Positions 18,236 to 49,775 of a DNA stretch of 64,000 nt are shown here, in pieces (position 1 is the stretch's first letter; each line of letters begins with the position of its first letter). The notes under the pieces were generated by a model. It searched no databases and was not told the origin of the DNA. It saw only the letters and a program-made list of their open reading frames with translations. The position numbers and the translations under genes were made by a program. Origin of the DNA: a virus; IMG/VR virus record IMGVR_UViG_3300022188_000229, positions 1-64,000 of that record; one strand, given 5' to 3'.

Positions 18236-18729
18236 TGAAGAAGAAGACACTTAATATAGGAGCGGGAGAGCGCACTTATACCTACTATCCTACTAATAAT
18301 TATGAATGTATTAATTTTGATGAGCGTAAGTTGAAGACTACCGATGTTGTAGGGGATGTTAGAGTATTAGATATGTTTGAAGATGAAGAATTTGATTTCA
18401 TTCTAGCCAGTGATATTATAGAACACTTCCCTATTAAAGAAGTGCAAGATATACTAAAAGAGTGGGGTCGAGTACTCAAAGCCTCAGGAATGATAGAATT
18501 TAGATTACCTAATTTAACTGCAATCTGTGTCCAATACATTAATGAAAAAAATGCTCGGAATGTGAGTTGGTTATTGTATGGGGGACAGGATTACTCTGGC
18601 AACTTTCACTACACTTGCTATGATAGAGTTCTCTTTAAAGAAGAGCTTATTAAAGCAGGTTTGGAGGAAGTTACTTACAGTGAAGAAGGTTATAATATGG
18701 TAGTTAGAGTTAGGAAAGGGGAAAAATAA
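18235..18729 (+). CDS. SAM-dependent methyltransferase-like protein (class I)
   Basis: The short (164-residue) Rossmann protein has LNIGAGERTY at motif I, YECINFDERKL at motif II, EFDFILASDIIEHFP at motif IV, and WGRVLKASGMIEFRLPN. This is the usual pattern of small class I methyltransferases found in polysaccharide clusters. Likely substrate: a sugar of the phage-made glycan. The start codon overlaps the preceding stop (TAATG), and the next gene follows immediately, so the trio is co-translated. Confidence 0.72.
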   Translation: MKKKTLNIGAGERTYTYYPTNNYECINFDERKLKTTDVVGDVRVLDMFEDEEFDFILASDIIEHFPIKEVQDILKEWGRVLKASGMIEFRLPNLTAICVQYINEKNARNVSWLLYGGQDYSGNFHYTCYDRVLFKEELIKAGLEEVTYSEEGYNMVVRVRKGEK

Positions 18730-19485
18730 ATGAAAACAATAACATTTCCGGTCGGCTATAGACCACAGTATTTAGAACAGTTTTTAACCTGCTTAGAGAA
18801 ACAGAATTTGGAGGGGTACACTATATTTTGTAGTGCTGAGGATTCTCCAGAATGTATCCAAATACTACAGAATTCTAAATTAGCTTTGAATATTTTATAT
18901 AAGAAGAATTCAAGTGGGAAACGAAATCATTCGGGAGCAAAAGATAATATGTTTAACGTGCTCAATGCCGCCTTTGAAGCAGGGTCTACCTTTAATCTAC
19001 ATTTGGAAGATGATTTTTTATTAGCCCCCGATGCAGTAGATTTAGCTAATTGGTATTATACTAATTTTAAAGATAAACCCATTACATATATGTCATATGG
19101 TATGTTCGGATTTAATCCTAGAGGCCTCGACCCCTCTGCTTTAGAAGAAGTACCTTTTTTTGAAGGGCTTGGTTGGTGTACATTTAAAGAGGGCTGGGAG
19201 ACATGCTATAAGCAAGCATGGTACGATATTAAACTAGCTAAAAAATATTTTGGTTCAAGCCACGGTTGGGATTGGTCAGTGCAGGCTTTCTTTAAAGAGT
19301 ATGGGTATAAAGCACTTCGTCCTCTTATTAATAGAACCCAACATAACGGACGTATGGGGGGAACTTGTTGTACGGTACGCCATCATGATAAACATTATGT
19401 ACCATTAAAATGGAACACAACCGAGCGCATATTAGAATTTAATTTAATAGGCACTTCTAAAGAAACAGCAGAGTGGATAAAATGA
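18730..19485 (+). CDS. Glycosyltransferase, GT-A fold (GT2/GNT-I-like)
   Basis: In the 251-residue protein, FNLHLEDDFLLAPDAVD carries the acidic E-D-D metal and nucleotide-sugar site, as in GNT-I type and GT2 enzymes. AKDNMFNVLNAAFEAG precedes it, and GSSHGWDWSVQAFFKEYG lies at the catalytic/acceptor region. A His-rich segment (RHHDKHY) follows. It overlaps the 2-epimerase by 4 nt (ATGA). Confidence 0.72.
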   Translation: MKTITFPVGYRPQYLEQFLTCLEKQNLEGYTIFCSAEDSPECIQILQNSKLALNILYKKNSSGKRNHSGAKDNMFNVLNAAFEAGSTFNLHLEDDFLLAPDAVDLANWYYTNFKDKPITYMSYGMFGFNPRGLDPSALEEVPFFEGLGWCTFKEGWETCYKQAWYDIKLAKKYFGSSHGWDWSVQAFFKEYGYKALRPLINRTQHNGRMGGTCCTVRHHDKHYVPLKWNTTERILEFNLIGTSKETAEWIK

Positions 19486-20549
19486 AAATACTTACTATAA
19501 TTGGTACTAGGCCTGAGCTGATAAGATTGAGTGTACTAATTAAAAAACTAGATAAATTAGTGGATCATGTGTTTGTATATACTAATCAGAATTATGACTA
19601 TTCTTTAAGTGGCAAATTTTTTAAAGAGCTGAAGATTAGAAAGCCAGATTATTATTTTAGTAATGAAGGTAATTCTATTGGTAATTTTTTATCAAACGCT
19701 ATTCTTCAATTTGAAGAGGTTCTTCTTAAAGAAAAACCAGATAAATTACTAGTGTTGGGTGATACTAATTCAGGTTTGCTGGCTATAATAGCAGAAAAAT
19801 ATAATATTCCTGTATATCATATGGAAGCAGGTAATAGATGCTATGATAATAGGCTACCAGAAGAAATGAATAGGCGTATTATAGATCATGTGTCTGCGTA
19901 TAATTTACCTTATACGGAGGGTAGTAAACAGAATTTATTGACCGAGGGGTTTCATAAGAACTACGTTTTTAAAACAGGCAATCCTATATATGAAGTTCTG
20001 TTGTATTACACTAAGGAGATAAATGATAGTAAAATTTTACAGAAACTATCTCTGAAAACTGAGGACTTTGTTCTAGTAACCACACATAGAACAGAGAATG
20101 TAGACGACCCTACCTCTTTACTAGGTATAATTAATGCCTTGAATGAAATTTCAAAACAATATAAGGTTATAATTTCTTTACACCCAAGGACAAAAGATAA
20201 ATTAAATAAGTTTGGGATATCTGTGGCTGATAATATTACTATGTTAGCGCCACTTGGATTTTTTGACTTTGTAAAATTAGAACAATCAGCAAAACTAGTT
20301 ATCAGTGACTCTGGGACTTGCCAAGAAGAGTGTTGTATTTATAATGTACCCTCTATAACAATAAGAGAAAGTACCGAAAGACAAGAAACCATAGAGTGTG
20401 GATCAAACGTGCTATCAGGAACAAATACTGAGCAAATTGTACGTATATTTAATACACTGTTAAACAGACCGTATGAATGGGCACCACCAAAGGACTACAT
20501 GAAGAAGAATGTATCTGATACAGTTGTAAATATATTGTTAGGAAAATAA
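19482..20549 (+). CDS. wecB: UDP-N-acetylglucosamine 2-epimerase (WecB-like)
   Basis: The 355-residue enzyme has the full family pattern: ILTIIGTRPELIRLS at the N-terminus, KLLVLGDTNSGLLAIIA, YHMEAGNRCYDNRLPEEMNR, LVTTHRTENVDDP, IISLHPRT and SDSGTCQEECCIYNVPSITIR. It inverts C2 of a UDP-N-acetyl-hexosamine. I use the ATG at 19482 (ATGA overlap) rather than the in-frame GTG at 19473. With the dehydratase at 26957 and the reductase at 27961 it would complete a UDP-L-FucNAc- or L-QuiNAc-type pathway. Confidence 0.88.
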   Translation: MKILTIIGTRPELIRLSVLIKKLDKLVDHVFVYTNQNYDYSLSGKFFKELKIRKPDYYFSNEGNSIGNFLSNAILQFEEVLLKEKPDKLLVLGDTNSGLLAIIAEKYNIPVYHMEAGNRCYDNRLPEEMNRRIIDHVSAYNLPYTEGSKQNLLTEGFHKNYVFKTGNPIYEVLLYYTKEINDSKILQKLSLKTEDFVLVTTHRTENVDDPTSLLGIINALNEISKQYKVIISLHPRTKDKLNKFGISVADNITMLAPLGFFDFVKLEQSAKLVISDSGTCQEECCIYNVPSITIRESTERQETIECGSNVLSGTNTEQIVRIFNTLLNRPYEWAPPKDYMKKNVSDTVVNILLGK

Positions 20550-20570
20550 AATACAGATGGGAGATTTAAT

Positions 20571-21140
20571 ATGATACTTGAGGATATGGATTTCACAGAT
20601 TTTTTTAAACACATTTCAGAGATTTTTTCAGGGTATTTCTCAAATAAAGAGACCGACATGCTGATGGGATTTGTTGATGTGTTATCTGACGCAAATTTTC
20701 GTTGTTACAAAGCTAATATGATTGTGATTAAGTCTAGAAAAGCACACGAGGATAATTATAAACTAGTTTCAGATATGGAGTGGGTAGCTAGAAGTGTAGG
20801 GGAGTATAGAGTTTCTTCTAAAGCTAGAATTAACTTGTATATCTCTAAAATAAGAGCTCAAAGCATAAGAACTAACTCAGCTACTTGGGTAAGTGATGAT
20901 GTAGTTTATAGTATAGGTGAGATGATGGATAGGTTATCAATAGAGACTATTAAAAGGGAAGACTTCTTTAAGAATAATAGACCAGACCACATGAGACGAG
21001 CCTCTCAGGACATTAGTGATAGGGTAGAGAAGTATTTAAGGGTTAAGCTAAAAGAGATAGATAGGAAAGGTTTCTACGAGTGTATACACGAGCAGAGAAC
21101 TTATGATCTTGAAGGTATAGTGCAAGAATTGGCGATATAA
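20571..21140 (+). CDS. Hypothetical protein within glycan cassette
   Basis: The 189-residue, largely helical and charged protein has no transferase or Rossmann motif that I recognise. Ribosome site GGGAG. It is followed directly by a GT32-like gene. It could be a structural or scaffold partner, or simply a phage gene embedded in the cassette. Confidence 0.5.
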   Translation: MILEDMDFTDFFKHISEIFSGYFSNKETDMLMGFVDVLSDANFRCYKANMIVIKSRKAHEDNYKLVSDMEWVARSVGEYRVSSKARINLYISKIRAQSIRTNSATWVSDDVVYSIGEMMDRLSIETIKREDFFKNNRPDHMRRASQDISDRVEKYLRVKLKEIDRKGFYECIHEQRTYDLEGIVQELAI

Positions 21141-21974
21141 ATGGATCTTATACCTAAAATATTACATACTTATTGGGACGGTAGCAACATGTCTCAGTTA
21201 CAAATGTTCACAGTGACTACGTTTCATAGACAAAACCCTGATTGGGAAATAAATGTGTATACAGCTAAACAAGATTATACAGGCAGAGCTCAGTATATAC
21301 CTGACTACAAAGGACAGAACTATTTTGATCTAGTAAAACAACTTGCTTATGTAAATATAGTTACAGTGGACTTAGATGACTATGGTATATTGCATAATCT
21401 ACATGGTATACTACGATCAGACATATTTAGGTACCATGTACTCTATAATATTGGCGGGGTTTGGTCTGATTTTGATGTAATATGGCTCAAACCAATGGAA
21501 CATTTTAATAACATTAAATATCATGGAGAAGCATCTATCAAAGAAGCTAACGCTATAGTTTCTTTTATGAAGGGTACTTACGGTGGCCATAGTATTGGTA
21601 TTATGATACACGCTAAACATGATCCATACGTTTTATCTTTGATTGAAGCCACTAAAAAAATTAAGCCTCCATATACACATGAAGTATTCGGTGGCGACAT
21701 GATTAACAAATACTACCCTACGTTAACTTCTTTATCTAACTACGGTAATGTTATTGGAGCGAGATTTGAAACTTATTATCCCTACAACATACACCCACCA
21801 AATGTTACCATACAAAAATTATATTCCGGTGTAGATTTAAATTGTATAAATAATAATGTTATGTGCGTGCATTGGTATAATGGACGTAAAGAGAGTAAGC
21901 ACTATGTTAATAATAATGGTTTTGAAAGAAATTGTAGTATGACTACAATATTAAAAAACGAGGGGTGTATATAA
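21141..21974 (+). CDS. Glycosyltransferase with DXD motif (GT32-like)
   Basis: The 277-residue protein begins IPKILHTYWDGSNM, the standard opening of capsular/mannosyl GT32-type 'sugar-binding DXD' enzymes. It contains GILRSDIFRYHVLYNIGGVW followed by SDFDVIWLKP, where the DXD metal site sits. GGHSIGIMIHAK and VHWYNG near the end match the family. The protein at 22739 is a paralogue, so one gene probably arose from the other by duplication. Confidence 0.78.
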   Translation: MDLIPKILHTYWDGSNMSQLQMFTVTTFHRQNPDWEINVYTAKQDYTGRAQYIPDYKGQNYFDLVKQLAYVNIVTVDLDDYGILHNLHGILRSDIFRYHVLYNIGGVWSDFDVIWLKPMEHFNNIKYHGEASIKEANAIVSFMKGTYGGHSIGIMIHAKHDPYVLSLIEATKKIKPPYTHEVFGGDMINKYYPTLTSLSNYGNVIGARFETYYPYNIHPPNVTIQKLYSGVDLNCINNNVMCVHWYNGRKESKHYVNNNGFERNCSMTTILKNEGCI

Positions 21975-22739
21975 ATGAAAGTTTCTATTATAATACCATC
22001 ATATAAGAGGTGCCATCTACTTAAATGGGGACTATGGTCCTTGGCTAGGCAAAAATTTCCTTTTGAATTTGAAACAATACTTTTAAATGATGGGCTTTTA
22101 GATAATACTGAAAGTCTTGGGGAACAAAATAAAGAAAGACTTAATTTAAAGTATGTTTTTACTGGCCAAAGAAATATAAATGGGGCTTCTTTGTGGAGAG
22201 TGCCTGGGTTTGCATTAAATATCGGGGCAAAGCAAAGTACCGGTGATATTATTGTGTTTTGTTGTGCTGAGATGTTTCATTTAAATAATACTATAGAATT
22301 ACTTACTTCTATATACAGTTCTTCAGGAAATGAAAAAATATTAGCAATGCCTAAAGCTAAGGATGATAGTGGGGAGTTTCTGAAACATGTTGAAGCCACA
22401 GGCGGAGCAACAAGTATTGAAGTGTATAATAAACAGCCCTCACTTATTAACGTGAGATTTCCCTTCTTTTTAGCCATGATGAAGCAAGAATTTATGGCCA
22501 TAGGAGGTTATGATGAGGATTTTACTGGGACAGACTACGATGATGAGGATTTAGTAATGAGACTGTTGGATAATGGGTGCTCTCATGTTGAAACTAATGC
22601 GTTGGCTATACATTTATGGCACCCACGTCTAGCTATGACACGTGAAAGAATACCTAGGTTCAATCATAATAAAAAATTATTTGAACAACGTCGTGGTATT
22701 ATAACTAGAAATGAAGGAAGGGAGTGGGGAGTGCTTTAA
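21975..22739 (+). CDS. Glycosyltransferase family 2
   Basis: The 254-residue GT-A enzyme opens with VSIIIPSYKRCHLLKWGLWS and has ETILLNDG, GAKQSTGDIIVFCCAEMF (the usual DxD is replaced by C-A-E) and GGYDEDFTGTDYDDEDLVMR (acceptor/catalytic ED loop). The WH-x-R end is typical. The change at the DxD position is unusual and could alter metal use. The 3' stop overlaps the next start by one base. Confidence 0.8.
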   Translation: MKVSIIIPSYKRCHLLKWGLWSLARQKFPFEFETILLNDGLLDNTESLGEQNKERLNLKYVFTGQRNINGASLWRVPGFALNIGAKQSTGDIIVFCCAEMFHLNNTIELLTSIYSSSGNEKILAMPKAKDDSGEFLKHVEATGGATSIEVYNKQPSLINVRFPFFLAMMKQEFMAIGGYDEDFTGTDYDDEDLVMRLLDNGCSHVETNALAIHLWHPRLAMTRERIPRFNHNKKLFEQRRGIITRNEGREWGVL

Positions 22740-23578
22740 TGGTAAAAGATATATATTTTTATTGGGGAAATAGTACTATGTCATATATGCGTTATATGAC
22801 GCTACATTCTTTTAAAACACATAACCCAGACTGGACTATATATTTGATTAAGAATAGCCAAGAAACTAATAGAGATTTAACTGAGACTGTAGAGAAACAA
22901 GATAAAACTGAATACACTGGTAAAGATTATTCATATTTAATAGATGATTTGAACATAAATATTGTGGAATTCGGAAATGATTTTATAGATTTGGATGATG
23001 CTGTTGTAGCGTCTATGTCAGATGTACACATTAAAGATATTCTGAATTGGAAATTATTAGCAGAACAAGGCGGCATAGTTGCTGATATGGATATACTATT
23101 TACTACCCCAATAGGTGATTCTATACAAGACTCTGTTGAATTAGGACTAATTTGTTTTGATAACAATCCTCAGAAAGATTATATTCCAGTGAGTTTTATG
23201 TACAGCTCAGGAAAGAATGAGTTTTTTAAAAAGACCTATGAGAATGCTCTTAGAAACTATAATCCTAGTATCTACGAGAGTTGTGGTACTATGTGTATAG
23301 AAGAGAATAATTTAAATGAGATTAAAGGTAACTATCTTAATATGGGTATCCAAGAACTAGCTGATGGGGTAGTATTTCCATTTATAGCTGTACCTTGGAT
23401 GAAAGGAATAAATATGTTGTACGATACTGATTGTACTAGTTTGATGGATTCTAATTCTGTAGGAATACATTGGTATGGCGGAGCGCCACAGTCACAAAAA
23501 TATAATAATATAATAAACGATAAAACAGTACATGAAATTAATAATACAATCTCTGTGAATATAAGGAAAATAATTTAA
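22739..23578 (+). CDS. Glycosyltransferase with DXD motif, paralogue of 21141 gene
   Basis: The 279-residue protein has IYFYWGNSTMSYMRYMTLHS at the N-terminus, mirroring the 21141 gene, then ILNWKLLAEQGGIVADMDIL with the D-M-D metal site and GIHWYGG at the C-terminus. Start ATG at 22739 (TAATG overlap with GT2) is preferred to an upstream in-frame GTG. Probably adds a different sugar to the same glycan. Confidence 0.72.
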   Translation: MVKDIYFYWGNSTMSYMRYMTLHSFKTHNPDWTIYLIKNSQETNRDLTETVEKQDKTEYTGKDYSYLIDDLNINIVEFGNDFIDLDDAVVASMSDVHIKDILNWKLLAEQGGIVADMDILFTTPIGDSIQDSVELGLICFDNNPQKDYIPVSFMYSSGKNEFFKKTYENALRNYNPSIYESCGTMCIEENNLNEIKGNYLNMGIQELADGVVFPFIAVPWMKGINMLYDTDCTSLMDSNSVGIHWYGGAPQSQKYNNIINDKTVHEINNTISVNIRKII

Positions 23579-24208
23579 ATGGGTTCTAAAAACAAGGAAA
23601 ATTTTATATATCATTATAACTTAGAAGTAAGTAATAATAGGCCTCCATGTGGTCCAGGGAGTGAACATAGTTTTATTGAAAGAAGTGGAACAGTAACTTT
23701 TTTGAATACTGTAATTAAGAAGTATAATATTAAATCTATAAATGATTGTCCAAGTGGATTACTCAGTAATTGGATGCATCTTGTAGATTTTAAAGATGTT
23801 GATTATGTAGGATATGATATAAATCCTCTGGCTGTTGAGAGAAATAAGAAGGAATTTCCTGCAATTTCATTTTTTGAATTTGATCTAGTAAATGAAATAT
23901 TACCGACTGCAGATTTAATTATTTGTAGAGATTGTTTTTTTCATCTTTCTAATAATTTTGTATCAAAAGGGCTAGAAAATTTTAGAAAAAGTGGAACCAA
24001 ATATTTATTATCTACATCACATTATTGGTTGGGTAAAAATAATGAATTAACTAAAAAAGAATTAGATATAGAAGCAGGTTATAGACATCTAAATTTAGAA
24101 ATCGCGCCGTATAATATGGGATCTCCATTGGAGATACATATTGAAGGTGGTTGGACCCCTTTAGACGCTGGAAATAATAGACAATTATCTTTGTGGAAAT
24201 TAAATTAA
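23579..24208 (+). CDS. Methyltransferase-like protein in glycan cassette
   Basis: The 209-residue protein has a Rossmann-like centre: SINDCPSGLLSNWM at the motif I position, VDYVGYDINPLAVERN, ADLIICRDCFFHLS at motif IV, then a beta-rich end. This matches a class I SAM-dependent methyltransferase acting on small molecules or sugars. Motif I is divergent (no G-x-G). Starts immediately after the preceding stop. From here to about 26960 the sequence looks even richer in A (AAA, GAA, AAT codons) than its neighbours, by eye only. Confidence 0.55.
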   Translation: MGSKNKENFIYHYNLEVSNNRPPCGPGSEHSFIERSGTVTFLNTVIKKYNIKSINDCPSGLLSNWMHLVDFKDVDYVGYDINPLAVERNKKEFPAISFFEFDLVNEILPTADLIICRDCFFHLSNNFVSKGLENFRKSGTKYLLSTSHYWLGKNNELTKKELDIEAGYRHLNLEIAPYNMGSPLEIHIEGGWTPLDAGNNRQLSLWKLN

Positions 24209-24223
24209 AAAAGGAGAAAGAAA

Positions 24224-24868
24224 ATGAATGATGTTACTAATGTATTTATTAGCGGCTTTCCTAGAGCAGGAACAACTATGTTGTGTTTAATGATGAATTA
24301 TTTTGAGGATTGCGAAGTACATTCTGATGGAGAAAGGCACCCTGGAGATTTTTCTTTATTAAAAACTAATAAGAAATATTTGGTTATAAAACAACCTTTT
24401 GGGGTTAAAGATTTTACACCTTTATATACCTATGAAAGTTTAGAGTCAGATTATAATTGTAAAATAATTTCATTAGTCAGAGACCCAAGAGATGTAGGAA
24501 CATCTATACATGCAGCAGATCCAAGTAGATATTGGGTAACAAGTGGCATGATAATTAGGAATTGTGAAGAATATCTAAATAATATAGATAATCCAAATGT
24601 TCTTTTTGTCAGATATGAAGATTTAGTTAATGATACTTCAATAGAATTAGATAGAATAGCTACTTTTTTAGGGACTACTTATAGTAGTAACTTTGAAAAT
24701 TTTTATACACTGTCTAACGCTAGTTTATTGAAGAATAATTCGTTAGGAAAACCACGACAAATAAATAATAAGAGTGTAGGTGAATGGAGAAAAGAGAAAC
24801 ATTCTAAAAGAGTTAAAGAATTAATGACTCCAAAACTACAAGAATATATAACTAAATTAGGTTATTAA
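24224..24868 (+). CDS. PAPS-dependent sulfotransferase
   Basis: The 214-residue protein carries both PAPS-binding signatures: FISGFPRAGTTMLCLMM at the N-terminus (5'-phosphosulfate loop, residues about 8-24) and ISLVRDPRDVGTS (3'-phosphate-binding loop, about 84-97). VLFVRYEDLVND and KSVGEWRKE are the usual downstream family blocks. It would move sulfate from PAPS to a hydroxyl or amine acceptor, most likely a sugar of the phage glycan given its neighbours. No PAPS-synthesis gene is present here, so host PAPS is needed. AAAAAGGAGAAAG ribosome site. Confidence 0.85.
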   Translation: MNDVTNVFISGFPRAGTTMLCLMMNYFEDCEVHSDGERHPGDFSLLKTNKKYLVIKQPFGVKDFTPLYTYESLESDYNCKIISLVRDPRDVGTSIHAADPSRYWVTSGMIIRNCEEYLNNIDNPNVLFVRYEDLVNDTSIELDRIATFLGTTYSSNFENFYTLSNASLLKNNSLGKPRQINNKSVGEWRKEKHSKRVKELMTPKLQEYITKLGY

Positions 24869-24882
24869 AGGAGATATACAGA

Positions 24883-25497
24883 ATGACAATGAGCCCAGAT
24901 TTTACTAACTATTATGATATTATTTTTGATTATGTTACAGAAGGCCCAGTATTAATTTACGGTGTACATAAAAATGTAGCAGAAAATCAAATGCCAGAAA
25001 AATACCAAGGAGTAACTGATTTTTCAGATTGGTTTAAAAAAAGAAATATAGATGCTTATACTTTAGATTTGTTTGACAAAGAAGCTAGTTATAATTTTGA
25101 TCTCAATGATCCAGTACCTGTGGGACAACTTAAGAGGTATAATGCTGTTATAGATATAGGTACAATAGAGCATATATTTGATGTGAAACAAGTACTACAT
25201 AATAGTTTTGGTATGGTGAAAGAGAATGGTTATTACATACTACAGACTACTGCTAATGGATTATACGAACATGGATTTTATGCTTTTGGTCCTGAACTAA
25301 TTCAATCAACTCTACGTAGTAATGGTTTTGATGTATTGTATTTTAAAACCAGTAATCTCACAGGAGTAGAGACTAATTTTTCAGATGTTTTTGCTCCAAT
25401 GCAGCCAAGTATGGTTATGTGGGTTGTAGCTAAAAGAGTTAAAGTATTGGAAAAGTTTGTAAATCCACAACAAGATCAGTGGAAAAATTTATATTAA
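24883..25497 (+). CDS. SAM-methyltransferase-like protein
   Basis: The 204-residue protein has YNAVIDIGTIEHIFDVKQVL at motif IV and then MVKENGYYILQTTANG, followed by GFYAFGPELIQSTL, which matches methyltransferases of glycan and phage clusters. A clean motif I glycine loop is not visible (LIYGVHKNVAE). Ribosome site AAAGGAGATATACAG. Sits between the sulfotransferase and a GT2 gene. Function as a sugar O-methyltransferase is inferred. Confidence 0.55.
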   Translation: MTMSPDFTNYYDIIFDYVTEGPVLIYGVHKNVAENQMPEKYQGVTDFSDWFKKRNIDAYTLDLFDKEASYNFDLNDPVPVGQLKRYNAVIDIGTIEHIFDVKQVLHNSFGMVKENGYYILQTTANGLYEHGFYAFGPELIQSTLRSNGFDVLYFKTSNLTGVETNFSDVFAPMQPSMVMWVVAKRVKVLEKFVNPQQDQWKNLY

Positions 25498-25512
25498 AAG
25501 GAGAATTATCTA

Positions 25513-26268
25513 ATGGAAAGAGTATCAATATTTAATTGTGTATCATCAGCATATGAAATGTTAAAATTTTCATCTGATGCTATAATACAAAATGCAGGTT
25601 ACGACAACTATGATTACATAGTAGTAACATGGGGGCCAACACCAGAAGTATCTGAATATTTAGATGAGTTAAAAAAGAAACATGATTTTGTTCATATTAT
25701 CGATTATAAAACTAATAAAGATGTGCCATATGTACCAAATTTAAGAGGCATGATGAATACTGGTTTTGATTATGGATTTGAATTGAATGACTACTGCGGA
25801 CTAACTAATACTGATCAGTACTTTGGAAAAGATTGGTTATTAAATTTAGTTAAATACGCTAATCCCACTGATATAGTTAACGCAACTTCCATTTGTCCAG
25901 TAGATTGGCCAAGTCACATTAATATTAATCTAGGAATTCCTGAGTATGGTAAATTTAATTTAGAAAAATTTAATCAATTATATGACGAATTATATGAAGA
26001 TAAAATTCAAACTGAAGAAGAACGAGGTGGCAGAAGAGCTACTAATACTATGCCCTATCTAATTCCAAAAAAATTCTGGGAAGAAGCAGGTCCTTGGGAA
26101 TTAAGGGTAAGTCCTGGAGATAGCCCGGATGTAAAATTTTTTCAAAGATGTAAAAAAGCAGGAGCACATTTTACTATGAGTCGTTCTTCAATAGTGTATC
26201 ATCATGAAGCAGTAGAAAGACGTAGTGGTCAAAGACCAGATGATGCAAAAGATATGAGTGAAGAATGA
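25513..26268 (+). CDS. Glycosyltransferase family 2-like
   Basis: The 251-residue GT-A-like protein has VSIFNCVSSAYEMLKF and DYIVVTWGPTPEV at the N-terminus, LTNTDQYFGKDWL in place of the DxD strand, and a C-terminal GDSPDVKFFQRCKKAGAHF acceptor loop ending YHHEAVERR. It overlaps the following homing-endonuclease gene by 4 nt (ATGA). Confidence 0.68.
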   Translation: MERVSIFNCVSSAYEMLKFSSDAIIQNAGYDNYDYIVVTWGPTPEVSEYLDELKKKHDFVHIIDYKTNKDVPYVPNLRGMMNTGFDYGFELNDYCGLTNTDQYFGKDWLLNLVKYANPTDIVNATSICPVDWPSHININLGIPEYGKFNLEKFNQLYDELYEDKIQTEEERGGRRATNTMPYLIPKKFWEEAGPWELRVSPGDSPDVKFFQRCKKAGAHFTMSRSSIVYHHEAVERRSGQRPDDAKDMSEE

Positions 26269-26963
26269 TAAGTAATAGTATCAAATTTAGTGATGTCATT
26301 AAAAAATTAGCAGTAAAAGATTATTTATCAGACATGAGTTGCAGAGAAGTAGGTAGAAAATATAAAGCCCATCATAGAACTATTGGACGATGGGTATTAA
26401 AAGCTGGATATAAATTAAGAACTAGAAAAGAGACAGAAATTTTATCTGGCAGAAAGATGAAAGGTATTAGAAGAAGTCCTGGTAGTGAATTTAAGAAAGG
26501 AGACCCTCCTTGGAATAAAGATACAAAAGGGATAATGAAACCTAACAAAACTTCTTTTAAGAAAGGAGTACATTATTCAATAACTACAGAATTTAAAAAG
26601 GGAATGCCTACATGGAATAAGAATATCCCATGTTCTGAAGATACTAAAAAGAAAATAAGTGAAGCTTTAAAAGGTAAATTGTTAGGTAGTAAAAATCCAA
26701 ATTGGCTAGGTGGGCCGAAAGATTATGGAAAAGAATTTAATTTTGTTTTAAAAGAAATAATAAGAAGTAGAGATAACTATAAATGTAGGGTATGTGAAAA
26801 GACTCAAAAAGAAAATAAAAGAAGACTCAGTTGTCATCACATAGATTATAACAAGAAAAATTGTAAAGAAAATAATTTAATTAGTTTATGTGACTCATGC
26901 CATATGACAACTAATTTTAATCGAGAATACTGGGAAAAGTATTTAAAGGAGATATTATGTTAA
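26265..26963 (+). CDS. Free-standing HNH homing endonuclease with HTH and NUMOD-type motifs
   Basis: The 232-residue protein has an N-terminal helix-turn-helix (CREVGRKYKAHHRTIGRWVL), repeated FKKG..PWNK segments, NUMOD3-like KKISEALKGK and GSKNPNWLGG motifs, and a C-terminal HNH core with CRVC, LSCHHIDYNKKNCKENNL and CDSC. This is a typical phage mobile endonuclease that spreads itself into a cognate site. It overlaps both neighbours by a few bases, so it sits neatly between the GT2 and dehydratase genes. Its HNH core is related to that at 52345. Confidence 0.85.
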   Translation: MISNSIKFSDVIKKLAVKDYLSDMSCREVGRKYKAHHRTIGRWVLKAGYKLRTRKETEILSGRKMKGIRRSPGSEFKKGDPPWNKDTKGIMKPNKTSFKKGVHYSITTEFKKGMPTWNKNIPCSEDTKKKISEALKGKLLGSKNPNWLGGPKDYGKEFNFVLKEIIRSRDNYKCRVCEKTQKENKRRLSCHHIDYNKKNCKENNLISLCDSCHMTTNFNREYWEKYLKEILC

Positions 26964-27964
26964 AGAATTCAATATTTACTGGGGAAGTGGTCCTTTTGAC
27001 AGGGGGTACCGGATCATGGGCTCATGAACTAACAAAACAACTACTTGACAAAGATCCAAAGATGATTATATTAATATCTAGAGGTGAATTGGCTCAAGTT
27101 ATGACAGCTAGAAAATTTAACAATGACCCAAGACTTAAGTTTATAATTTGTGATGTAAGAGATACTGCTGCAGTAGATAGAGTACTTAGTACAGGGGTGG
27201 ATTATGTATTTCATATGGCAGCATTAAAGCATGTACCTGTATGTGAGGACCAACCACAAGAAGCTATTAAAACCAACATAGATGGTACAATGAATATTAT
27301 TAACTCTGCTATTAGACATAAGGTGAAGAAAGTTATTGATGTGTCAACAGATAAAGCAGTTTCACCTACTAATTTATATGGTTTTACAAAAGCAGTAGGG
27401 GAAAAGTTAATAATTCAAGCCAATACTTTGTCAGATGACACTGAGTTTGTTTGTATTAGGGGTGGTAATGTTCTTGGTTCTAATGGTAGTGTAGTACCTT
27501 TATTTATAGATCAGATAAAAGAGTTTAATAAAATAACAGTTACTGATGAATCAATGACTAGATTTTTTCTTACACTGCCAGAAGCTATAACTTTATTGTT
27601 TCAGGCTACAGAATATAGTACAGGCGGAGAAACATTCGTTATGAATATGCCAGCCTTCTATATAGGGGATTTAGCTAAGGTAATGATTAGACACTATGGG
27701 GATGAAAACACTTCAATAGATGTAATAGGTTTGAGACCAGGAGAAAAAGTCCATGAAGAGTTAATTTCTGAACATGAATCTCATAGGTCGCACATCTTTA
27801 ATGAGGACTACTATGTGATATTACCTGAAATTGCTATGGGAAAAGACTATGCTGATTTAAAAGCCATGGATAAAGTAAAGTTTGATAGTTTTTCTTCATC
27901 TGACAATGTGAAAGGACAAAGGTATTTAACAGATTTGCTTAATAATGGGGGCTTTTTAATATGA
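26957..27964 (+). CDS. UDP-GlcNAc 4,6-dehydratase (CapE/WbjB/FlaA1-like)
   Basis: The 335-residue extended SDR enzyme has VVLLTGGTGSWAHEL (NAD(P) loop), CDVRDTAAVDRVLS, FHMAALKHVPVCEDQPQEAIKTNIDG split over two blocks, and VSTDKAVSPTNLYGFTKAVG. In this family STDKA with downstream K forms the catalytic region (the Tyr of YxxxK is replaced in 5-inverting dehydratases). RPGEKVHEELIS is present. It would form a 4-keto-6-deoxy UDP-sugar. Ribosome site AAAGGAGATATT. Confidence 0.85.
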   Translation: MLKNSIFTGEVVLLTGGTGSWAHELTKQLLDKDPKMIILISRGELAQVMTARKFNNDPRLKFIICDVRDTAAVDRVLSTGVDYVFHMAALKHVPVCEDQPQEAIKTNIDGTMNIINSAIRHKVKKVIDVSTDKAVSPTNLYGFTKAVGEKLIIQANTLSDDTEFVCIRGGNVLGSNGSVVPLFIDQIKEFNKITVTDESMTRFFLTLPEAITLLFQATEYSTGGETFVMNMPAFYIGDLAKVMIRHYGDENTSIDVIGLRPGEKVHEELISEHESHRSHIFNEDYYVILPEIAMGKDYADLKAMDKVKFDSFSSSDNVKGQRYLTDLLNNGGFLI

Positions 27965-28779
27965 GAATTTTTGTTTTTGGAAGAAATGGTATGTTAGGTA
28001 ACTACGTATACTCTTATTTTAAATTGAACACATCATACGATGTTATAGGTATTACTCGAAAGGATATCGACCTGTCCCGTGTATCTAACTTTAAGTTACT
28101 AGAAGGTCAGTTTAGTCCTGAAGATGTGATTATAAATTGTGTTGGGGTTATAAAGCAACGGAATAACGCAGAAGATATGGAGTTTATTGTAGTAAACTCA
28201 GTTCTTCCACATTATTTAAACAACGTTTGTAAAAATATTAGAGCTAAGTTTATTAATATTTCAACAGACTGTGTGTTTACAGGGGCAGATGGAGGTTACG
28301 ACGAGGAATCTGCTCACGATGCGTCAGATATATATGGAAGAACCAAGTCTTTGGGTGAGCCTGTGGATGCTACTACTATTCGAACATCAATAATAGGGGA
28401 AGAGCTAAGCAATTTTTGTTCCTTGATCGAATGGGTTAAAAGTAATAAAGATAAAAATGTGTTAGGATATACTAATCATTTCTGGAATGGAATAACCTGT
28501 CTTCAGTTTGCAAAGATATGTGAATACATGATAGATAATTCTTTTTATTGGGAAGGCGTCAGACATATTAATTCTCCTAGTGTTGTTTCAAAATGTGATT
28601 TGGTTAAATTAATATCTGACACTTATGACTTGAACATTGAGGTTACCCCTCATACTGCACAGACATACTGTGATAGGTCGTTGTCGTCCATTAAAGAGAA
28701 ATTTCCAATAGATATTCCAGAGTTAGTTGTTCAAATCGAGGAGCAGAAAAAGTTTTATGGGAGACACTATGGACTTTAG
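27961..28779 (+). CDS. RmlD-like nucleotide-sugar 4-keto reductase
   Basis: The 272-residue SDR protein has IFVFGRNGMLGNYVYSYF, INCVGVIKQR, NSVLPHYLNNVC, FINISTDCVFTGADGGYDEE and IYGRTKSLGEP (Y-x3-K). This is the dTDP-4-dehydrorhamnose-reductase/WbvR/CapF type N-terminal domain. The overlap of 4 nt with the dehydratase gene (ATGA) supports a common pathway: dehydration at C4/C6, then reduction of the 4-keto sugar. The 2-epimerase at 19482 would complete the set. Confidence 0.83.
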   Translation: MRIFVFGRNGMLGNYVYSYFKLNTSYDVIGITRKDIDLSRVSNFKLLEGQFSPEDVIINCVGVIKQRNNAEDMEFIVVNSVLPHYLNNVCKNIRAKFINISTDCVFTGADGGYDEESAHDASDIYGRTKSLGEPVDATTIRTSIIGEELSNFCSLIEWVKSNKDKNVLGYTNHFWNGITCLQFAKICEYMIDNSFYWEGVRHINSPSVVSKCDLVKLISDTYDLNIEVTPHTAQTYCDRSLSSIKEKFPIDIPELVVQIEEQKKFYGRHYGL

Positions 28780-29263
28780 TAAAATTGATATAATTGTTAG
28801 CGAAATTGATGGTATTTTAACTGATGGATTCAAACCAATAGATAATATGAATTTGTGCTTATTTAAGAACTACTGTGAGAAAGATTTTGAAGCCATTAAC
28901 GAATTAAAGCGATTCTTTACAGTAGTATTCCTTGCTTCAGACTCAGATGTTAGTTATAATGTGATGAGGACTAGAAATATACCTGCTTATTTTATTACAT
29001 CTAAGGAAACTAAACTAGATATACTCACTAGAAAGATAATGCCTCGTTATAATATGCGTCCTGAAAATTTATTATATATAGGTAATAAACTATCAGATGT
29101 CCCTTGTATGAACTACGCTGAGTATAGCTTTACAATACCGGCTTCAGCCAATAGAGTGGTTTGTGCAGCCAACGGATCAATTGCTGGAGCATCTGGGAAG
29201 GGCATCATGACCAAGTTGTGTGAGGTTTTACTTCCTGAGATAGAAAAAAGAACAAGAAAATAA
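28769..29263 (+). CDS. KdsC-like HAD-superfamily protein with altered nucleophile
   Basis: The 164-residue protein has the KdsC layout: SKIDIIVSEIDGILTDG (motif I), VVFLASDSD (motif II), SKETKLDIL (motif III Lys) and NLLYIGNKLSDVPCM (motif IV). In motif I the first Asp of DxD, which normally forms the phospho-enzyme, is Glu (SEIDG). Phosphatase activity may therefore be reduced or lost. Start ATG at 28769 with GGGAG just upstream fits the domain start; ATG at 28757 is an alternative. Last gene of the glycan cassette, followed by the next promoter. Confidence 0.75.
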   Translation: MDFSKIDIIVSEIDGILTDGFKPIDNMNLCLFKNYCEKDFEAINELKRFFTVVFLASDSDVSYNVMRTRNIPAYFITSKETKLDILTRKIMPRYNMRPENLLYIGNKLSDVPCMNYAEYSFTIPASANRVVCAANGSIAGASGKGIMTKLCEVLLPEIEKRTRK

Positions 29264-32804: not shown

Positions 32805-35800
32805 ATGCTATTTATAGATAGTTTTCAAGAAAAAATTTGGAAGGATAAGTATCAGTACGGAGATGAGACTTATGAAGATTTCTGTCACCGTATAGCGTAT
32901 ACTATCTTTGCCAAAGATGAACACAAAGCTAAACAATTAAAAGAGTCTATTGAGGGCTTTAGGACTTTATTTGGTGGAAGAATTAATTCTAATATAGGTA
33001 TACCAGAGCAAGGACTAACTCTCTTCAATTGTTTTATTGAGGCAACAGTCAAAGACCCTGATTCATTAGAAGGTATCATGGATATGGTAACCAAGTATGC
33101 TCTCACATTAAAGACTGAGGGTGGAGTAGGTTTCTGTGCTAACTTTTTAAGACCGGCAAATACTTTGATTAGGAAGATAGGTGTTACTACCCCTGGGGCA
33201 ATCAAGTTCCTAGAGATATTTGATAAGGTATCAGAAGTTATTACTTCAGGCAGTGTATCTAAGAAAGATAGTATACAGGGCGTTCCAACTAAGAAAAGCA
33301 TCCGTAAGGGTGCTACCATGGTAACTATGAGCGCCAACCACCCAGATATAGAGGATTTTATTACAGCTAAATCTATACCTAATAAGCTTACCAAGATGAA
33401 TATGTCTGTACTAATTTCAGATGCATTTATGTATGCTGTAGACAATGAGTTAGATTGGAATTTGTGGTTTCCAGACATAAGCCATGATAAGTATGACAAA
33501 GAATGGGATGGGGATTTTGAAAAATGGGCAGGGAAAGGTTACCCTTGTGTGACATATAAAACTGTAAAAGCTAATTATCTTTGGGAATTATTACTTAAGT
33601 CTAGTTATTGTGTCCCAGGTACGTTAGAATTACCTGCCTATCATAATAATAACCCAACAGATATAAGTATAACACACCTACACAAGATGGTGCAGAATGG
33701 TGAGGATATTCAGGTTCTTTCTATTAATAAGGATACTTTAAAATTAGAAAAGAAAAGAGTTACTAATTCGGTTTGTACAGGAGAAAATGAACTATTAAAT
33801 ATCACTACTAGTTCTAATTTACAATATAAATGTACCGGTGAGCATAAATTGTTTGGTATGTCTACGGGAGCCCCTTTATATGAAACTATGGCTAAAGACT
33901 TTGTTGTAGATGATTACATAGCTACTGTAAATAAAACTACGGTTGAAGACGAGAACTTCTGTGTTGATGATGATTGGGAAGTATTTACTGGCATGATTTT
34001 AGGAGACGGCAGTGTAAGACATGGGCAAATAAGAATTGCAGTACACATAGACCAGGTTGAGGAGGTGCTACCGTTAGCAAATAGAATAGCTGAAAGATAT
34101 AATAGAGAAGTAAAATTATATTATGATAAAAGATCAAATAATTGGGCAGAGCTTAGTATACATTCTACCAAGTTGAGCACTGATTTAGAAGCCTTTATGT
34201 ATCAATCTAAATTTGAAGGACAAAGTACTTCTATTAAAGAAATACCTAATTACTTATTTACTACTATTAATTTAAGAAGTGTTAGAAATTTTCTATCAGG
34301 ATTCTTTAGTGCAGACGGCTGTATTAACGGGCAGAAGACTACTTATTATTCTAAACACGATCATATAGCTATTGGTATACAGAGATTACTTCTTAGAGTT
34401 GGAGTTATTAGTAGAAAATATAAAGTTAACCATAAGGAACTTAAAGTGTTTGGATTTCGTGTAGACATGGATATGAACAACTCTGTTAAGTTACTAAAAG
34501 AAATACCTAAATTTTTGATAGAATCTAAGGTTAATAGAGACTTCTATGAGACCGTTAACGAATATAAAGCTCCTATAGGGATTATGGCTTATGATGAAAT
34601 AAAATCTTTTTCTAATAAAGCAAAATTACATAGAGAAAATAGAAGAACTGGTAAACAAAATTTTCCAGAAAAATACCAACACTTATTTGATTCAAATGTG
34701 GTACATGAGTCTATAGTTGATATATCTTCTGGAGGTACTGTAAAAACATATGATATAACAGTTGAAGATAATGAAAATTTTATTTGTGTGGATGGAGGAT
34801 TATATCATAATTGCCGCAACGAACCTGGAATTCTTTTTATAGACACTATTCGTAGTATGGACAATATTAAGTATCTTACTAGTTCCATACAGGCTAGTAA
34901 CCCATGCGGGGAAGTGATGGGAAACACTGGTATAGTAGAGCACAAAGGTCAACTCTTTGAGCTTGGTGATGTTTGTAACTTAGGTTCTTTGGTTCTACCT
35001 TATTACTATGATATGAGTACCGAGAAGTTTAATTTTGAGGAATTCAAAAAAGATATAACTATTATGGTAGAGGCTCTGGATAATGTTATAGAGATATCAG
35101 ACTACCCATTGGATATGTATGAGCAGGCTGCTAAGATGAAACGTAAAATCGGTCTTGGAGTAGCAGGTATCGGATCTCTTTTTATGATGATGGGTGTAAA
35201 GTACGGTAGCGACGAGAGTATTAAAATTACAGAAGAAATTTTGTCTATTTTAGCTAACACATCTTACCAAGCTTCTGCTCTTTTAGCTAAAGAAAAAGGT
35301 CCTTTCCCACTATACGACGAAAAACTATTGGAGGACGGTTATGTAAAGAATGGAGGTGTTCTGACTGAAGATACTTTAGCAATTGTTAAGAAGCATGGGC
35401 TTAGACACTCAGCTACAATGGCTATTGCACCTAACGGTACCTTATCTATTCTAGCAGGTAATGTCTCTGGAGGTCTGGAACCTGTATTTTCACCTGAGTT
35501 CACTAGATGGAATAGGATAGAAGGTAAGAAATTAGGCTTTACTTATCCCAAGATCCATAAAGGTGAATGGTTTGAGACAGATTATTTTAAGGAAGAACTA
35601 ATAGCTGATGAACCTATTTTGGTTTCTACAGATGGTAAGTATAGAATTGATAATAATCAAGGTCTTTGTAAAGAAGTAACTATTAGGGACTATGGGTATA
35701 ACCAAGCATTAGAGTATGGTAAGATAGAATTTACTACTGCCATGGGTCTTTCAGTACAGGAGCACTTCAATATCTTGAGTGTGTTCGCTAAATATATTGA

Positions 35801-36545
35801 TTTGAGTTGTAGCAAAACTGTAAATCTACCAGCAGATATTACCTTTGAAGATTTTAAGGCGCTGTATGGTAAGATTCATAGCCAGGGTATTAAAGGCTGC
35901 ACTACTTATAGAGCAGGGACTTCTATAGCTGTTCTAGAGGTAAAGAAGGAAGAGAAGGATAGAACTATCAAAGCTCAACAGAAAGAGTTTTTAGAGGCGT
36001 TTAGAGGCCACGAGAATGGAGACATTATGCGTGATGTAGTTAAGCTACCAGAAGAGTACCCAAGTATGGGATATGTAATTAGAGCAGAGAAGAAAAAATG
36101 GTATTTACATGTGGCTTTTAAGAATGAAGCTAAGACTAAACCTTTTGCTATTTTTGTAAGCACTAATGATCAGTCCCCTACTCTTATTACTAACAATGCA
36201 ATTGAGGCTCTAGAGAAATTAGCTAGAAAGCATAGACTCGGCGGTAGGCGTTTAGAAGAAGTTGGTAAGAAGTATGCACGACAACCTAATTCTGTTAAGG
36301 TAGCCCGTATGCTGGGTTACCTGTTAAGGCATAATGTGCCTATGCTAGATATAGTTAAGGCATTAGATAATGTCGAGGATGCTCATGTTGGAACTTTTGT
36401 TTTTAGAATCAAGAAATTTCTTATGCAGTTCATCACTGAGCCTGTAGATTTAGGTATCACTTGCAATGAATGTGGAGGAGTAGACGTAATTCTTCAAGAA
36501 GGGTGCACATTGTGCCGCTCCTGCGGTTCAAGTAAATGTTCTTAA
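32805..36545 (+). CDS. nrdJ: Class II (B12-type) ribonucleotide reductase with intein, NrdJ-like
   Basis: 1246 residues as translated; about 845 after removing an intein (residues 269-669). Host-protein motifs: LFNCFIEATVKDPDS (first redox Cys), SNPCGE (radical Cys), DVCNLGSLVL (second redox Cys), NGTLSILAGNVSGGLEPVF, and a C-terminal EGCTLCRSCGSSKC, which is the class II tail. No small NrdB subunit is seen in the window, which supports adenosylcobalamin dependence. It converts ribonucleotides to deoxyribonucleotides for phage replication. The AAGGAGGC ribosome site follows dUTPase closely. Between the reductase core and the tail lies a region (TIKAQQKEF ... KKFLMQF) seen in NrdJ proteins. 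Confidence 0.9.
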   Translation: MLFIDSFQEKIWKDKYQYGDETYEDFCHRIAYTIFAKDEHKAKQLKESIEGFRTLFGGRINSNIGIPEQGLTLFNCFIEATVKDPDSLEGIMDMVTKYALTLKTEGGVGFCANFLRPANTLIRKIGVTTPGAIKFLEIFDKVSEVITSGSVSKKDSIQGVPTKKSIRKGATMVTMSANHPDIEDFITAKSIPNKLTKMNMSVLISDAFMYAVDNELDWNLWFPDISHDKYDKEWDGDFEKWAGKGYPCVTYKTVKANYLWELLLKSSYCVPGTLELPAYHNNNPTDISITHLHKMVQNGEDIQVLSINKDTLKLEKKRVTNSVCTGENELLNITTSSNLQYKCTGEHKLFGMSTGAPLYETMAKDFVVDDYIATVNKTTVEDENFCVDDDWEVFTGMILGDGSVRHGQIRIAVHIDQVEEVLPLANRIAERYNREVKLYYDKRSNNWAELSIHSTKLSTDLEAFMYQSKFEGQSTSIKEIPNYLFTTINLRSVRNFLSGFFSADGCINGQKTTYYSKHDHIAIGIQRLLLRVGVISRKYKVNHKELKVFGFRVDMDMNNSVKLLKEIPKFLIESKVNRDFYETVNEYKAPIGIMAYDEIKSFSNKAKLHRENRRTGKQNFPEKYQHLFDSNVVHESIVDISSGGTVKTYDITVEDNENFICVDGGLYHNCRNEPGILFIDTIRSMDNIKYLTSSIQASNPCGEVMGNTGIVEHKGQLFELGDVCNLGSLVLPYYYDMSTEKFNFEEFKKDITIMVEALDNVIEISDYPLDMYEQAAKMKRKIGLGVAGIGSLFMMMGVKYGSDESIKITEEILSILANTSYQASALLAKEKGPFPLYDEKLLEDGYVKNGGVLTEDTLAIVKKHGLRHSATMAIAPNGTLSILAGNVSGGLEPVFSPEFTRWNRIEGKKLGFTYPKIHKGEWFETDYFKEELIADEPILVSTDGKYRIDNNQGLCKEVTIRDYGYNQALEYGKIEFTTAMGLSVQEHFNILSVFAKYIDLSCSKTVNLPADITFEDFKALYGKIHSQGIKGCTTYRAGTSIAVLEVKKEEKDRTIKAQQKEFLEAFRGHENGDIMRDVVKLPEEYPSMGYVIRAEKKKWYLHVAFKNEAKTKPFAIFVSTNDQSPTLITNNAIEALEKLARKHRLGGRRLEEVGKKYARQPNSVKVARMLGYLLRHNVPMLDIVKALDNVEDAHVGTFVFRIKKFLMQFITEPVDLGITCNECGGVDVILQEGCTLCRSCGSSKCS
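33609..34811 (+). mobile_element. Intein with LAGLIDADG homing endonuclease in ribonucleotide reductase
   Basis: 401 residues from Cys 269 (SSY/CVPGTLELP) to Asn 669 (GGLYHN/C). N-terminal splicing Cys, block B CTGEHKL with T..H, and block F/G ENFICVDGGLYHN with the His-Asn end before Cys+1 are all present. The endonuclease has two dodecapeptide motifs, GMILGDGSV and LSGFFSADG. Removing it rejoins LLKSSY with CRNEPGILFID. Confidence 0.93.
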
Positions 36546-40317: not shown

Positions 40318-41145
40318 ATGCTAGGAACCAAGACTAAAGAACAAGTACTTAACTTGTTCCCACAACACACCATTTTAACGGCGTATAGAGGTAGTGTAGC
40401 ACACGGTATGTACGTACCTGATACTGACCCTCATAGTATAGACGATATCGACCTATTTGGTATCCATATGGCTCCTATAGATTGTTACTTAGGTTTGTTA
40501 CAACATAAAGACTACTATGAGCCTGTAGTAGGTAAATACAAAGAGACTATAGAGGGTTTCTTTGATGAATATGACGTGGTCAGCTACGAGTTTAAGAAAA
40601 TGATGCGTTTGCTTATCAATAGTAATCCTAATGTACTTTCACTTTTAAGTCTTAGAGAGGAACACTACCTTAATATAACTGGTGCAGGAGAACTGTTACT
40701 TAAGCATAAAGAGGCATTCTTTTCTCAGAAAGCTTACTATTCTTTCGCTAGATATGCAGAGGATCAACTCAAGAAGATGACTCACTTTGCATTTGAAGGC
40801 TATATGGGAGAAAAACGTAAGACCCTTGTTAAAAAATTTGGGTATGATACTAAGAATGCAGCTCATTGTATTAGATTGCTTCGTACTTGCATTGAGTTTT
40901 TAGATACCGGAGAGTTAAATGTTTTTAGAGAGGAAGATTCCGAAGAGTTATTACAGATTAAATTGGGGCAGCGAAGTTTAGAGTCTGTAGAAGCAGAAGC
41001 AAAGGATCTCATTGTTAAAGCTACTTATGCTAAGAACCATTCAGTGTTACCTGAAGTACCTGACTATAATAAGATTAATTTAATTACTAAACAAATAGTT
41101 TATGATTATATTATTGATGAGGCGTCGGGTGTTTATGCTTTTTAA
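40318..41145 (+). CDS. Nucleotidyltransferase-like protein (PF10127/RlaP type)
   Basis: The 275-residue protein has AYRGSVAHGMYVPD (GS loop) followed by SIDDIDLFGI (D-x-D metal site, D43/D45), the core of the minimal polymerase-beta nucleotidyltransferase fold. Helical C-terminal part with KKFGYDTKNAAHCIRLLR is typical of the family also called RlaP, linked in some bacteria to RNA-ligase repair. Here a DNA-ligase-like gene follows after one promoter. Substrate unknown. Confidence 0.72.
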   Translation: MLGTKTKEQVLNLFPQHTILTAYRGSVAHGMYVPDTDPHSIDDIDLFGIHMAPIDCYLGLLQHKDYYEPVVGKYKETIEGFFDEYDVVSYEFKKMMRLLINSNPNVLSLLSLREEHYLNITGAGELLLKHKEAFFSQKAYYSFARYAEDQLKKMTHFAFEGYMGEKRKTLVKKFGYDTKNAAHCIRLLRTCIEFLDTGELNVFREEDSEELLQIKLGQRSLESVEAEAKDLIVKATYAKNHSVLPEVPDYNKINLITKQIVYDYIIDEASGVYAF

Positions 41146-49391: not shown

Positions 49392-49775
49392 ATGGACACT
49401 TATGATATATTAATTGTAGACGATGATCCAGAAGTCGCTGCACTTTATGAGGCTTTTATGGAATTAATGCCTTATTCTTTTAAAGTGGTTACTTCAGGAG
49501 AGGATGCATTAGAGTTACTTAAAAGTATTAAATTTACTGTGTTTATATTAGATATAGATTTAGGGTACAACGTCATGACAGGGGTTGACCTCAGCATTAA
49601 GATTAAAGACATGCAACAAGATGCTAAAGTGTATGCATTAACTGGCCACGCTGTAATCTTTGATGGGTTTGATCCATCAATAGCGGGCTTTGATGAAGTT
49701 TTTAGTAAACCATTAGGCTATAAAAGTTTAATCATTTTACTAAAAGATATACTAGGCGATAGAATTAATAAATAG
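49392..49775 (+). CDS. Stand-alone response-regulator receiver domain
   Basis: The 127-residue protein is a receiver domain only: acidic pocket D11/D12 in ILIVDDDPEVA, phospho-acceptor D54 in FILDIDLG, T84 in VYALTGHA, and K106 in VFSKPLGY, all of the conserved set. No output domain is attached, as in CheY/Spo0F-like proteins. It is a likely partner of the phage multi-PAS protein or of host kinases. AGGAGGTCCCCAAC ribosome site. Confidence 0.9.
   Translation: MDTYDILIVDDDPEVAALYEAFMELMPYSFKVVTSGEDALELLKSIKFTVFILDIDLGYNVMTGVDLSIKIKDMQQDAKVYALTGHAVIFDGFDPSIAGFDEVFSKPLGYKSLIILLKDILGDRINK

Follow-up and report, generated by a model that had tools for sequence, protein, structure and literature searches.

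Sulfotransferases in phage genomes

The genomes of OM43 phages carry a sulfotransferase (PF13469) whose function is called unclear by the authors in the available part of their report (PMC10580990). In viruses assigned to Patescibacteria sulfotransferases have been identified as auxiliary genes beside RmlD and epimerase families (PMC12285232), and viral sulfotransferase auxiliary genes have elsewhere been termed previously reported (PMC8290583). They also appear among viral auxiliary genes in the accessible text of a further study (PMC10829341), which cites the prediction by Iyer et al. (2013) of phage systems that glycosylate and sulfate nucleotides. Glycosylation of the virion has been described in mycobacteriophages (Freeman et al., 2023, as cited in the accessible portion of PMC12619734). 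Phage sulfotransferases stand as auxiliary genes without a known role, the substrate of which has been shown by nobody. The original prediction for the locus described here treated a phage sulfotransferase as undescribed and was wrong in this, since such genes are annotated in the GenBank cyanophages S-SKS1, S-SRM01 and S-SCSM1 as well as being reported in the first four papers cited above. The gene type is already known in phages, and what is informative is that this one lies in a defined glycan cassette that is exchanged. A targeted phrase search of the open-licence literature returned no paper on a phage sulfotransferase, and the same literature yielded no account of sulfated glycans in phages.

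The DNA analysed (hereafter the window) comprises bases 1–64,000 of a 92,895-base IMG/VR virus record that may be a fragment. The record is that of a phage, a tailed myovirus: it encodes a contractile tail sheath, along with DnaB, PolA and a sliding clamp, and its ribonucleotide reductase carries an intein, which splits the large subunit (32805–36545) and has a LAGLIDADG domain. Elsewhere in the window there is an RNA-repair nucleotidyltransferase of the RlaP family (40318–41145; PF10127, E 6e-17) and a 714-residue protein (45065–47209) with several PAS domains and, by Pfam, no kinase domain. A stand-alone response-regulator receiver domain (49392–49775; PF00072, E 8e-16) is encoded 2 kb further on, and the two proteins are predicted to be parts of a phage signalling system.

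The sulfotransferase gene and its product

The gene at 24224–24868 (+ strand) is an open reading frame of 214 codons, encoding 214 amino acids, with an ATG start and no internal stops. The Shine-Dalgarno-like sequence AAAGGAGA lies upstream of the ATG, and shuffling the gene 2000 times gave an open frame in none of the 2000 cases. The profile search against the Sulfotransfer families that had been proposed as a check on the original prediction bore it out, with PF00685 (Sulfotransfer_1) matching nearly its full length over residues 5–211 (E 6.3e-17, 62.2 bits against a cut-off of 22) and PF13469 (Sulfotransfer_3) also scoring well above its threshold (E 5.5e-11, 43.6 bits against 27). Both of the PAPS-binding loops on which that prediction was built are intact: GFPRAGTT at residues 11–18 is the P-loop that binds the 5'-phosphosulfate and VRDPRDVGTS at residues 85–94 is the 3'-phosphate-binding motif (RDxRDxxxS). 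A third PAPS motif is present towards the C-terminus, where KSVGEWRK (residues 183–190) forms the GxW/[KR] segment, which we take to be equivalent to the RKGxxGxWK motif of the SULTs; a relative from Roseobacter has KSVGTWRS at the counterpart position. When the protein was aligned with seven other phage sulfotransferases, G16 of the P-loop and R86, D87, R89, D90 and S94 of the 3'-phosphate loop were invariant among the eight. Candidates for the catalytic base (His or Glu) are D35, E37 and H39, which lie in the expected loop, the alignments disagreeing on which of them it is. That the gene is real and that its product belongs to the PAPS-dependent type of sulfotransferase is secure.

A model predicted from the eight-sequence alignment (mean pLDDT 76.7, pTM 0.79) was compared with known structures. 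Foldseek returned 121 PDB matches at E <= 0.001, and the best 50 of these 121 were all sulfotransferases or the related retinol dehydratase. By VIA-align the highest scores were to the sulfotransferase domain of olefin synthase (Z 16.7) and to TPST-1 (Z 16.6), with SULTs and heparan 3-O-sulfotransferases at Z of about 13–15, and a profile built from the phage alignment recovered the same sulfotransferase families by sequence. A kinase or other P-loop family, named in the original prediction as the structural match that would speak against it, is ruled out, the PDB matches listed being sulfotransferases or retinol dehydratase only, and both Foldseek and VIA-align favour the sulfotransferases. 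The structural and profile matches fix the family of the enzyme and not its acceptor.

The surrounding sugar genes

The sulfotransferase gene lies within a run of genes on the + strand that are concerned, by annotation, largely with the synthesis and transfer of sugars. Upstream are a UDP-GlcNAc 2-epimerase type enzyme (19473–20549; PF02350, E 1.8e-92, best PDB match CapG 7ya2 at E 1.1e-97), a DXD glycosyltransferase (21141–21974; Gly_transf_sug, E 9.6e-10, above the cut-off), a GT2 glycosyltransferase (21975–22739; Glycos_transf_2, E 2.8e-8, above the cut-off), a putative DXD-type glycosyltransferase resembling Caps_synth and Gly_transf_sug (22724–23578; 20 bits against a cut-off of 24.5) and, directly adjacent, a methyltransferase (23579–24208; phrog_3382, i.e. 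PHROG 3382, E 3e-37, with a weak Pfam match to Methyltransf_12). Directly downstream is a weakly methyltransferase-like gene (24883–25497; Methyltransf_23, 17.2 bits against a cut-off of 27), for which no relative was found when it was used as a search query. It is followed by a gene for a 251-residue protein (25513–26268) with no Pfam or NCBIfam match and a single PHROG match at E 0.07, by a probable homing-type endonuclease gene with NUMOD3 and HNH-like cysteines (26265–26963; E 0.0023, slightly under the cut-off), by a UDP-GlcNAc 4,6-dehydratase type enzyme of the PseB/CapE/FnlA group (26957–27964; PF02719, E 6e-97, PDB matches CapD 6bwc and CapE 3vvb) and by an RmlD-like nucleotide-sugar reductase (27961–28779; PF04321, E 2.6e-18, with RmlD-type PDB matches). 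Because the 251-residue protein is without a family match, the description of the gene as embedded between methyltransferase-like genes and a GT2 gene holds only in outline: the flanking methyltransferase, its weaker counterpart and the upstream GT2 gene are as described. The central claim, a sulfotransferase of the PAPS-dependent type within a phage glycan cluster, is one on which profile, motifs, predicted fold and neighbours agree.

The dehydratase, reductase and 2-epimerase types together make up the gene set for UDP-L-QuiNAc or UDP-L-FucNAc, and the three products are predicted to fit a pathway from UDP-GlcNAc to a UDP-6-deoxy-L-HexNAc. As the PDB matches of the reductase are to RmlD structures only, and CapF is not matched, the L-QuiNAc route (WbvB-WbvR-WbvD) is presumably likelier for this triad than that to L-FucNAc. 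As to the source of the sulfate, neither the 92,895-base record nor ten other phage records yielded an APS kinase in a search that was positive in 11 of 14 control genomes. The sulfotransferase, if active, would thus most likely use PAPS made by the host, and the proposed draw on the host PAPS pool is supported as probable.

Exchange of the cassette between related phages

A search with the DNA polymerase identified 13 related viral loci. The closest relative found consists of a locus (L014) and its upstream piece (L033) on a 189-kb contig, with a polymerase 88% identical over 436 residues. By blastn this relative follows the window at 71–78% nucleotide identity across the replication genes that lie upstream, as far as 18704, and homology restarts at 28769, the start of a KdsC-like gene; the whole cassette between these points (18705–28768) is replaced. 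Between the same borders L014 has GT2 enzymes, a Gfo/Idh oxidoreductase, a hexapeptide transferase, a methyltransferase, a Sulfotransfer_3 gene of its own and a DegT aminotransferase. In another relative (L011/L034) homology ends at 21974 and restarts at 26999, so that there only the block containing the sulfotransferase (21975–26998) is replaced, by methyltransferases, a RIO-kinase-like gene and a GT2 gene. The probable endonuclease gene forms the right edge of this variable core, and a stretch 30% identical to it is found in L034. The genes between 23579 and 26963 have a GC3 of 0.15–0.19, compared with 0.23–0.36 for most surrounding genes, and this low value suggests that they are a recent arrival. 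These breaks in homology indicate that the glycan gene cluster is a cassette swapped wholesale between related phages.

The right border of the swapped cassette is formed by the KdsC-like HAD protein (28769–29263, + strand; TIGR01670, E 2e-9, under the cut-off), whose gene has a constant position, with the variable cassette on one side and the clamp-loader and polymerase genes on the other. The nucleophilic Asp of its DxD motif is changed to Glu (VSEIDG), a residue shared by eight of nine relatives and replaced by Ala in L012, and the protein is possibly a pseudo-phosphatase that has been conserved in some other role. Within the sugar cassette of one relative (L004, 4543–5733) there is a TnpB-like protein (Cas12f1-like TNB domain, E 2e-20), a possible agent of cassette movement. 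In six relatives (L010, L011, L013, L014, L015 and L016, from 10001 onward) the polymerase open reading frames encode 1028–1479 residues and the match to the 643-residue polymerase of the window is interrupted at residue 436 (or 525). This points to inteins or insertions of another kind at a single polymerase site, one that carries no insertion in the window.

Sulfotransferases elsewhere in the lineage and beyond

Four records of the lineage have a sulfotransferase in the cassette. In addition to the window, L004, L014 and L016 each have one, likewise placed in the stretch that precedes the KdsC-like, clamp-loader and polymerase genes. These proteins are at most about 28–29% identical to that of the window, in partial alignments, and a common function cannot be assumed among sequences so divergent. 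No sulfotransferase was found in the other ten records, although several of these are short or end within the cassette and two of them (L011 and L013) seem hardly to differ. A tree of 23 sulfotransferases gave no resolution, with two starred branches, and a single clade for the four lineage copies was not rejected (p-AU 0.276); independent, repeated acquisition is for this reason no more than plausible.

Close relatives of the window sulfotransferase were found neither by a pattern search of viral and genome contigs nor among GenBank phages at E 1e-3. A profile search identified five further viral and 17 bacterial loci, all distant. Among the unrelated phages, L024 and L025 have the sulfotransferase among sugar genes, with NeuB and an asparagine-synthase-like gene, and a 331-kb contig (L027) has two, again among sugar genes, with DegT and a nucleotidyltransferase. 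As judged from sequence only, the gene in L028 is near a predicted acyltransferase-like gene and that in L026 (4370–5128) lies between apparent structural genes, not sugar genes. Many more sulfotransferases are present in a viral structure library, including those of uncultured Caudovirales phages and of Xanthomonas phage FoX4. The best plasmid match was RLO149_RS22720 of Roseobacter litoralis pRLO149_63 (27% identical over 96%), which sits in a polysaccharide cluster alongside glycosyltransferases and an O-antigen ligase. This context cannot be generalised because that of four other cellular loci (L037, L039, L040 and L042) is not clearly a sugar cluster.

Proposed function

The reading that we favour, and to which we would give an even chance, is that a working PAPS-dependent sulfotransferase decorates a glycan made by the phage, most likely on the virion, as a tailoring enzyme of the exchangeable cassette. 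The 2-epimerase, dehydratase and reductase would convert host UDP-GlcNAc to a UDP-6-deoxy-L-HexNAc of the L-QuiNAc or L-FucNAc type, phage glycosyltransferases would assemble a short glycan from which the methyltransferases and the sulfotransferase, drawing sulfate from host PAPS, would produce the decorated form, and this would be carried most probably on the virion and less probably on the host surface. Exchange of the cassette among related phages would then provide a variable outer coat.

It is rather unlikely that the cassette instead alters the surface polysaccharide of the host during infection, in receptor masking or superinfection exclusion, the sulfotransferase then acting on precursors of the capsule, O-antigen or exopolysaccharide. 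The nucleotide sugars predicted here are of a kind typical of capsules and O-antigens, and one of the distant cellular relatives lies in an exopolysaccharide/LPS cluster; however, a flippase, polymerase or acyltransferase such as serves in O-antigen conversion is missing from the cassette genes that were scanned, and the cassette adjoins the polymerase and clamp-loader genes of an apparently lytic myovirus. Sulfation of a protein, for example of tyrosines in a virion or host protein, is possible because the tyrosylprotein sulfotransferases rank as high as any structural neighbour (Z about 16), TPST-1 and TPST-2 both being among the best structural and profile matches. The sulfotransferase domains of olefin synthase and curacin reach equal scores, so that the match to TPST shows the fold and not the acceptor, and the location of the gene among sugar genes also makes this improbable. 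There is a similarly small chance that the glycosyltransferases, methyltransferases and sulfotransferase hypermodify the bases of the phage DNA. Replication genes adjoin the cassette and base-modification systems with a glycosyltransferase and a sulfotransferase have been predicted (Iyer et al., 2013, as cited in the accessible text of PMC10829341), but no thymidylate-synthase-type hydroxymethylase (PF00303) was found in the 92.9-kb record, which may be partial, and genes for nucleotide-sugar synthesis and wholesale swapping better suit a surface glycan. That the gene is a transient passenger with no selected function, as its low GC3 and absence from close relatives might suggest through recent acquisition, is very improbable given three intact PAPS motifs, an open frame, a good ribosome-binding site and the presence of some sulfotransferase in the cassette of four lineage records.

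A bolder and doubtful proposal is that this lineage of large myoviruses has a glycan-cassette swap site at which sulfation has been recruited repeatedly, through very different sulfotransferases, giving a sulfated, serotype-like coat on virions or infected cells that would be the first sulfated phage glycan. The defined swappable cassette and its natural replacements in close relatives turn a function described as unclear into a testable claim, the expectation being that sulfate would be found on virions or infected cells of cassette-bearing phages and not with relatives that lack the cassette.

Comparison with known systems

The OM43 phages likewise carry a sulfotransferase but belong to another lineage, and a glycan cassette is not described in the available part of that report (PMC10580990). 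In the mycobacteriophages glycosyltransferases act on the virion, and the accessible portion of the source mentions no sulfotransferase (PMC12619734). The cyanophages S-SKS1 (SWZG_00288), S-SRM01 and S-SCSM1 are, like the phage of the window, tailed phages with sulfotransferase-family genes; SWZG_00288 is only about 22% identical to the window protein and is surrounded largely by hypothetical proteins, a 2OG-Fe(II) oxygenase and a ferrochelatase also being encoded close by. Human TPST-1 and TPST-2 and the sulfotransferase domains of olefin synthase and curacin share with the window protein the common PAPS-sulfotransferase fold (Z 15.9–16.7 over about 200 residues), although identity is near 20% and the window protein is shorter. 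The WbvB-WbvR-WbvD and CapE-CapF-CapG pathways have the dehydratase, reductase and 2-epimerase types in common with the window, where, unlike in CapE-CapF-CapG, the reductase matches RmlD and not CapF and the three genes are non-contiguous. RLO149_RS22720 of Roseobacter is cellular and, at 271 residues, longer than the window protein, and both are encoded within polysaccharide or sugar clusters.
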